Below, in pieces: positions 39,501 to 42,500 of a DNA stretch of 64,000 bases; the stretch's first letter is position 1; the number at the start of each line of letters is the position of its first letter. Location: the NCBI GenBank assembly GCA_032622095.1, contig CP136063.1:67035897-67099896 (forward strand), written 5' to 3'. The DNA comes from Siphonodentalium dalli (taxonomy: Eukaryota; Mollusca; Scaphopoda; Gadilida; Siphonodentaliidae). The translations under genes were made by a program, and so were the position numbers. The notes under the pieces were generated by a model. The model was not told the origin of the DNA. It saw nothing but the letters and a program-made list of their open reading frames with translations, and ran no database searches.

Positions 39501-42500
39501 CCAATATGACTTTTCACCACAACCTGGACTCATACAAGAAAAATACATACTGTACACAACATTGGCACTGAAAGGGTTAACCTTGTTTGTTTACACTCAG
39601 AGAAGAACCGAACTGTTATAAAGTCGTGAGATCAAATGAGTTTGTATTCTTAGGAAATTATGTAAACTTTGTGATAAAATATATTTTCACATTAAATTAC
39701 TGTTTTCAGTTGAAAACTCTTGTGGAACATATATATAATGTTTCCTATGGAATAAGCTGGGTTAATTTCAAGTCTGAGTTTAGTGTCATTTGGAGAATGA
39801 GGTCCCCAGAGGATTAATTTAGTGACGCTATCGCTCATAGAGGTCTAGCAACACTAAATTCACCCTCTGGGAACCTCATTATGCCTCATCTTCTGTGATA
39901 AGTTTCTTTATTATCAAATTTCTATAGAAACTTTGATTGTATATCTTTTTTAGTTTAGCTTCTCTATATTCCCAAATTGGTAGATGACACATTGCATAAT
40001 TGAGGTTCCCAATGGGTGTATATCACAATATTCACCATTTGGGAACTTCAATCTGAGTCTATGTCTCCCATAGTAGATGATGCCAAGCAGAATGAGGTCG
40101 CAAGAGCGCGAATTTGGTGATGCTAACCCACTAAGCGGGATTGCGTCACTAAATTCAGCCTCTGGGGAGCTCATTCTGCAAATGACAGGCTCACTAAACT
40201 CAGGCTTAAAGTAAATAGTGATTCTCGAAAAATTCTCCCATTTCATGTACATCTTCAAGAGTTGATTCTCGCAAAAGGGATAAATTTGTATGTCCTGTCA
40301 TATTTCTTGTAAAATAAGTTTGTCCAGGCAGATTTTAAATTTTTTGTGCCACTATAAATTAATGTACATTTTTGACATTTTAGATTGCAATGGTTGGTGA
40401 TTTGAAGAACGGTCGCACTGTTCACTCATTGGCAAAGCTACTGACCTTGTACAGGGTGACTCTGTACTACATTTCTCCCCCTTCACTGCAAATGCCGGAA
40501 GATATCAAGAAATATTAAACTCAGACTTGGTTACTTTCACAGTTGTGACATTTTATTCTGGTCATCGGTGATTTTAGATGAGCGGTACTTTACACTATAG
40601 AAGAGTAAGGCAACCATACTTAGATGCAAACTGACATAATCCCTACCGATTTCACTAGCTGGTTTAAGTCAAAGGAAACTTGGACAGGTCACAATGAAGT
40701 AAAGATTCTACTGATTTCTACACAATGAATCATACCTCGAGTGTCATCCGTCCTTCTTTTACAGCTGTCAATAAGAGCGGTAACATCGTTTCTAGACCTG
40801 GGAATCCTGGAGGCGGAGTTTCACTGTCCTTTTCATCAACTGTGTGTGGAGCTGAGTAGATATCAGAACAAAAGCATGTATGAATAAAAAGTGATGTACA
40901 GACTGCAATGCTATATTATGCGAAAAAGAGAATACAATGCATGCTAAACAATAACTCAAAATGAGGTCTCCAGAGGGTGAATTTATTGATGTTAGCCCGC
41001 TATGAGGTACAGCGTCACTAAACTCGCTCTCTGGGGGACCTCATTCTGCAAATGACAGGCACACTAACCTCAGGTTTGGTCAGTATGACTCTGAGTGTAT
41101 GTATACACAGACTGGGTTTTAACCCTTTCAAATTAAAACACTCATTGGCGAGTAGTTATGCCTTAGGAAATGTTCAGATAATAAGTTTTTAACTTGGTGT
41201 GAGAATCCATTTAATAAAGAAAGGGTGAACGTATCTATCTACCAACTTACCATGATCAGTAGCGAAGCAATCAATGACATCTAGATTGTCCCACAAGGCC
41301 TGTTGGTCCTCCTTGGAGCACAGCATTGGTCTAACTTGACCTCTTGTTTGACCTATTGTTTTAAGGTCATCAGCGGTCAAGAAGAGATGATGTGGAGCCA
41401 CTTCACACGTAACAGGTAGACCTCGTTCTTTCGCAGCTTTGATGAGCATGATCTACAATAAGGAACATACAGGTCAACCCTTTCATGACTGGAGCTGCAA
41501 TAACCCTTTGAGTGCCAAGTCCGATTTTTGTATCAACCCATATACCCTGAGCCAATGCATTCTCTTATATATGCGAGTCGACCATAGGTCGCCTCGCATA
41601 TATAAGAGAATGCATTGGCCTAACAATTTTTCATCATTTGTTATTATTTTTTACAATTTTAATAATTTTTCTTATATTCTTTAACAGACTTATTTTGTAG
41701 GTTCGGTGCCAGGGAATGATAGTTTTGAGATATAACATGCCCCTAAAGTTTTATCCAGTTTGTTTTTAAATTCGCTATAGCATGCTTAAGCATACCCAAA
41801 ATGTTTTTGTTTTTTTTGTTTAGGGCCGATTTTACAGACCGTAAATTAGGGCACTGAAAGGGTTAAAGTGCAACATTAAAGATCCTGTGCCAGTGCATTC
41901 TCTTATATATGCGAGTCACCCATGGGAGCATCACATATATAAGAAAATGCATTGGCTTACATGGTAAAGGTAAATATTGTTAGGCAAATCTATTCTTTTA
42001 TATATGCAATTTTCCAGGATTTTCATGTTTCCAGGGTATGCATGCGAAAACACTGATTGGTATTATGTCCACCAATGTGACAAAACTAGTTTGTCTGGCT
42101 CTTGATTTCATGGTTTGTTCATACCACAAAATCAATGATTAAAGGTACTCAATCAGATGGTCCCAATATCATCAATATACAAGAACATACGCTTTAGTTA
42201 TCAGAATCGATTAAATGCAACAAAATAATGCTAACCACTGTTAACTATGGCATAAAATTTCCCAATATGTGTCATTTATCAACATTTTGTTCAACGAAAT
42301 ATATCCGTATTATCACTTGAGAATTAAGAAATTTGGCCATATTACCACTTGATTTTAGAGTTATTGTCTGTTTGACGACGTGTTTCTGGGCCACAAATAA
42401 TTGCACATTTCAAAAAAACATCAAACTTCAAATTTTTTTATCTGATCACTCTGAGCTTTGATAGGTGGGTTCCTCTACTCGAATCATATATTTTTTACCC

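Follow-up and report, generated by a model that had tools for sequence, protein, structure and literature searches.

A 308-bp piece of the CAD gene was found between the ends of a short hAT-like transposon that occupies a different intron of CAD, within the 64,000-nucleotide stretch of Siphonodentalium dalli DNA analyzed here (hereafter, the window). We consider it highly probable that this chimeric element is a Pack-TIR formed by cis capture and that, as far as the window shows, it is confined to a single locus. Fragment capture by a transposon is an already known kind of event; the present case illustrates cleanly how a hAT-like MITE can take up a gene fragment in cis inside one gene, and its duplicated terminus is informative on the position of the break.

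The CAD gene in the window

Much of the window is occupied by a minus-strand CAD gene of the animal type, extending from putative CPSase-like exons at approximately 58 kb, marked by a motif, to the ATCase MHPLPR motif at approximately 1.6 kb. The exon from which the captured piece derives (11498..11653, minus strand, 156 nt) encodes the Asp-binding part of ATCase. Its translation matched a PDB chain annotated as CAD protein (5g1n, E = 4.7e-16), and its Pfam match to PF00185 (2.6e-06, 28 bits) fell slightly below the cut-off of 29.4. Another exon, 41452-41249 (minus strand), was identified as DHOase by its PDB match to the CAD DHOase (E = 2.5e-27).

The intron that hosts the element is bracketed by exons at approximately 40851-40736 and 36860-36650. 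The former, an ORF on the minus strand neighboring exon 41452-41249 and located upstream of the element, was assigned as an approximate CAD DHOase exon; its CAD identity is presumed, mainly from its position, and its peptide gave no hit in Pfam. The latter, an approximate exon downstream of the element (minus strand), is an ORF that was located by two CAD motifs, NPKRIF and a second one, and presumably belongs to CAD. When four short peptides were compared with Pfam, two of them had no hit, and PDB settled one of these two.

A single element with its own target-site duplication

The element spans 39769..40529 on the plus strand (761 bp) and is non-autonomous. Its ends, CAAGTCTGAGTTTA and TAAACTCAGACTTG, form inverted repeats matching at 14 of 14 positions, so that the new right end (40516..40529) is a perfect inverted match to the left end (39769-39782). 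The flanking octamers GTTAATTT (39761..39768) and GTTACTTT (40530..40537) pair at 7 of 8 positions over the whole unit, and for random placements within the window a match of at least 7/8 at such spacing would arise by chance with a probability of 0.0007. The left flank paired with the sequence flanking the inner end at only 2 of 8 positions. The initial annotation had placed the copy after one MITE and before the end of another; this description could not be upheld, and two separate MITEs flanking host DNA were ruled out on the basis of the outer and inner flank pairing. The capture by a hAT-like MITE that it also proposed was supported by the single unit, the 8-bp target duplication, and the inverted ends.

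Alignment with five other members in the window demonstrated that 39769..40207 comprises the MITE body together with the original right end, which lacks only its terminal G and is now internal. This buried end and the new end form a direct repeat matching at 12 of 13 positions. The identical 14 nt also terminate the family member at 62992, so that the new end may have come from somewhere other than the left end of the element itself.

Both ends could be located for four members of the family, at 11770, 32832, 39769, and 52802, and all four are flanked by 8-bp duplications (8/8, 8/8, 7/8, and 7/8, respectively), with the value for the member at 32832 holding only when its start is shifted by one base (3/8 from 32831). 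An 8-bp target duplication is a hallmark of hAT elements, and the P superfamily also has 8-bp target sites. The three ORFs scanned for domains in the window were of transposase kinds other than hAT. We infer a hAT-like affiliation solely from the length of the target site, no transposase being linked to the family; in this respect the element differs from Mar, the hAT-type MITE of Drosophila (PMC3517528), which, in the portion of that report considered here, is likewise a short non-autonomous element.

Extent and position of the captured CAD segment

The captured segment (40208..40515, plus strand, 308 bp) contains approximately 170 nt of intron, the acceptor, and 132 of the 156 nt of exon 11653-11498, corresponding to 11653-11522. 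A BLAST comparison with 11522-11769 gave 89.2% identity over 250 columns (E = 1.6e-89), which excluded a chance match, while the presence of the intron and acceptor excluded a retrocopy. The inverted repetition of the CAD exon, acceptor, and intron described in the initial annotation was thus verified, at a distance of 28.5 kb. The copy does not form a separate locus; it sits in an intron of CAD itself, antisense to the gene. Apart from the parent, the captured segment had no match in the whole 64-kb window.

The captured exon part (40384..40515) encodes 44 residues and is followed by TAA at 40516, so that the frame meets a stop immediately on re-entering the element; the exon is truncated and carries no donor. 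At the other side, 20 nt at the start of the segment aligned poorly, and the homology detected by BLAST begins at 40228. The stretch 40208-40230 holds TGATTCTCGAAAAA, which is nearly repeated 44 nt later as TGATTCTCGCAAAA; this poorly matching start is possibly the product of a second small template switch. Both junctions looked blunt by eye, with no shared base seen, although the left junction is uncertain by about 20 nt.

In the parent intron, the part matching the copy (11654..12241, minus strand) is split by another member of the family, a 424-bp MITE (11770..12193, plus strand), which is flanked on both sides by the target duplication TTTGCGAG (8/8). The copy crosses this site uninterrupted and has no trace of that MITE, indicating that the template lacked the insertion.

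Relative age of the MITE and the captured segment

Among six aligned family members, from which shorter or rearranged members had been excluded, the MITE part of the element at 39769 was the most diverged, with 28 private changes at the 343 sites where the others agree. In comparison with the single replacement at 101 sites in the captured exon (Fisher p = 0.010), the MITE therefore looks older than the capture. Had all its private changes followed the capture, 8.2 exon replacements would be predicted versus the one seen (P = 0.002). The simplest reading would be that the MITE aged before the CAD piece was taken up; some of the private changes could be subfamily differences, or could predate the insertion at this site.

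Proposed route of formation

These features are consistent with the following sequence of events. An older MITE would already have been resident in the host intron, and a break would have occurred at or near its right end. Repair would then have proceeded through a template switch onto the CAD exon region of the same or the homologous chromosome, followed by a second switch onto a MITE end, which would have generated the duplicated 13-14 bp terminus. The location of the parent within the same gene, 28.5 kb from the copy, fits such cis repair. With less confidence, it may be proposed that the template, a CAD haplotype or a related lineage, differed from the reference allele before the capture.

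An improbable alternative is that the CAD piece was captured elsewhere and that the chimera then transposed into CAD as a whole, in the manner of FoSTeST or of a multicopy Pack-TIR. The complete ends and the 8-bp duplication would suit such a transposable unit, but cis gap filling yields the same flanks when the MITE is already resident. Moreover, random reinsertion into the very gene of origin would be improbable, and no further copy was present within the window. A misassembly such as a chimeric haplotype join is hardly credible, considering that the differences between copy and parent are spread over the full length, that the MITE of the parent is absent from the copy, and that the copy stops precisely within the end of a transposon and is accompanied by a target duplication of its own.

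Divergence of the copy from its parent

Within cis capture, two histories of the template were weighed. In one, today's CAD allele descends directly from the template, and the copy has since simply decayed neutrally, the 7:1 ratio of silent to replacement differences reflecting luck together with silent changes in the gene. This history is a variant of the Pack-TIR explanation, compatible with its capture step, and requires no divergent haplotype. In the other, the template had already diverged from today's reference allele.

The captured exon (40384-40515, plus strand) and the gene exon (11653-11522, minus strand) differ at 8 of 132 nt, distributed over eight codons. Seven of the changes are silent and one exchanges Glu in the gene for Asp in the copy, precisely as the initial annotation had counted. 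The codon and intron comparison proposed along with that count likewise showed few replacements, with a dS of 0.27 and a dN of 0.010. In the intron, 14 of 138 aligned sites differ when the poly-T tract (16 aligned columns, 5 mismatches) is left out and 19 of 154 when it is included, with 5 gap columns uncounted. The claim that the intron is clearly more diverged than the exon held for the replacement sites taken alone (1/101 versus 14/138, p = 0.005) but not for the whole exon (8/132 versus 14/138, Fisher p = 0.27), the latter result being compatible with neutral decay. Silent divergence (7/31) was higher than that of the intron (p = 0.07), an excess that neither the decay model nor the divergent-template model predicts.

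Were all of the divergence to postdate capture from a direct ancestor of the gene, 5.2-6.0 replacements would be expected versus the one observed. Tests of this decay model gave probabilities of 0.005-0.021 (binomial), 0.017-0.033 (Poisson), and 0.003-0.006 (LRT). In simulations, the probability was 0.007-0.018 when conditioned on 6-10 changed codons, again to the disadvantage of decay, but 0.05-0.065 when unconditioned, a value that decay can accommodate. These p-values are optimistic, because the case was chosen for its striking 7:1 pattern. The earlier remark that a neutral pseudo-exon would be expected to look otherwise holds in direction, with no more than moderate support from probabilities that run from 0.003 to 0.065 depending on the method. 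A two-phase likelihood placed the best post-capture share of the divergence at 0.04-0.06 (95% upper limit, 0.46-0.54), under a fractional-divergence model in which gene and copy share one neutral rate, omega is 0.04-0.05, and conversion is absent.

Base composition was also compared. At six of the seven silent differences the copy has G or C where the gene has A or T, compared with three of nine in the intron (Fisher p = 0.06); with the Glu/Asp site added, the contrast was 6/8 versus 3/9 (p = 0.15). Such G+C enrichment in the copy is unlike the outcome of decay in an A+T-rich intron. Gene conversion was rejected as the source of the silent bias, as it would be expected to reset the copy, after which replacements would accumulate.

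Simple decay since capture from a direct ancestor of today's gene is thus disfavored by these comparisons, yet the history built on it remains a serious contender whose chance we put somewhat below even. The 7:1 pattern is as would be seen between two functional genes, and the template may therefore have been a CAD lineage unlike the reference allele. The near-restriction of the differences to silent sites is suggestive and comprises only eight changes; we give about an even chance to the view that the template had already diverged from today's reference allele and that most of the differences arose while both were functional genes. More tentatively, and with a probability that we would place on the lower side of one half, the captured fragment could be a snapshot of a functional CAD lineage, such as a deeply divergent haplotype, an allele acquired by introgression, or a paralogue that has since been lost. 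If this is true, the fragment would record, in the gene's own intron, an old allelic divergence absent from the reference parent exon. With a divergent haplotype as template, fragments of this kind could preserve past allelic diversity in the manner of small fossils.

Of the two options that the initial annotation offered, the numbers agree better with capture from a functional CAD allele or paralogue that had diverged, and constraint on the copy is very unlikely, whether it were to act as a protein or to regulate CAD in antisense or hairpin form. Seven of eight changes being silent would agree with the latter, as would the presence of both arms on the CAD primary transcript, where they could pair (248-nt arms, predicted duplex energy of -369 kcal/mol, longest perfect run of 46). 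Against this stand the antisense orientation of the copy, its truncation, the lack of a donor, and the immediate TAA; furthermore, pairing would be blind to the distinction between silent and replacement sites. In the best reading, the copy is without a function of its own. A bias toward silent changes in captured DNA need not imply function and may be inherited from the source.

Comparison with known systems

In the portion of the animal Pack-TIR survey considered here, 370 such elements, 208 of them hAT, were described in 100 genomes and were mostly single-copy; 59.8% of 281 were intrachromosomal, 56.9% of parents lay under 15 kb away, breakpoints were skewed inwards, and microhomology was present at breakpoints in 67.6% of cases (Tan et al., 2021; PMC8277862). 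The present element resembles those described there in that a hAT-like DNA transposon holds a host fragment of 100-5000 bp between the ends of one element, the parent is on the same chromosome, and capture probably followed insertion (PMC8277862). A single TIR element occupies both sides, with a full MITE body and perfect 14-bp ends (39769 and 40529), where the definition asks for no less than 10 bp per terminus, and the included intron and acceptor distinguish the captured segment from an intronless retrocopy. For this non-TE segment of 308 bp, one parent was seen within the window, the definition calling for a unique one. The parent lies in cis in the same gene, as expected for gap filling, and the 8-bp duplications typical of hAT, matching at 7/8 or 8/8, flank each of the four members of which the two ends could be located.

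Unlike the elements in that part of the survey, the parent here is 28.5 kb away inside the very gene that hosts the element, and the breakpoints coincide with the TE terminus, of which 13-14 bp are duplicated, microhomology being apparently lacking (PMC8277862). Two of the published filters differ from what was found: a MITE (11770-12193) splits the parent intron where no TE within 100 bp of the parent is allowed, and the identity was 89.2% over 250 columns where at least 90%, a filter on youth and not on structure, is demanded (PMC8277862). A limited literature search for gap-filling Pack-TIRs yielded nothing beyond PMC8277862.

Two further systems share certain features, as far as the portions of their reports considered here describe them. 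Pack-TYPE transposons, including Pack-MULEs (PMC8903248), are similarly non-autonomous DNA elements with gene fragments, but are of plants, whereas this case involves an animal-type CAD, and the window showed no second copy. An animal DNA element with captured coding sequence is also known from the Turmoil-1 transduplication of C. elegans (PMC2572040), in which the sequence was captured into the inverted terminal repeats.

Other repeats in the window

Approximately 41% of the window has a match elsewhere within the same 64 kb. The MITE end motif occurs at many sites, with several close pairs at approximately 1292-1521, 2356-2585, 59801-60023, and 63070-63299. A 321-codon ORF at 9311-10273 (minus strand) contains Tc5-type HTH and DDE_1 domains and is presumably pogo/Tigger-like, and transposase pieces with DDE_Tnp_1_7 in two ORFs at 55812-57736 (minus strand), inside the CAD span, are taken by us to be piggyBac-like.

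A 46-bp tandem array of 13.2 copies (95% matches) at 10921-11527 (minus strand) takes in the final 24 nt of the parent exon and its 5' splice site. Because this splice site is within the array, 13 donor-like GTGAGTAC sites stand in a row. Translation beyond the first of these donors meets an in-frame stop (VSTPQ*), and the capture breakpoint at 11522 lies 6 nt within the edge of the array.
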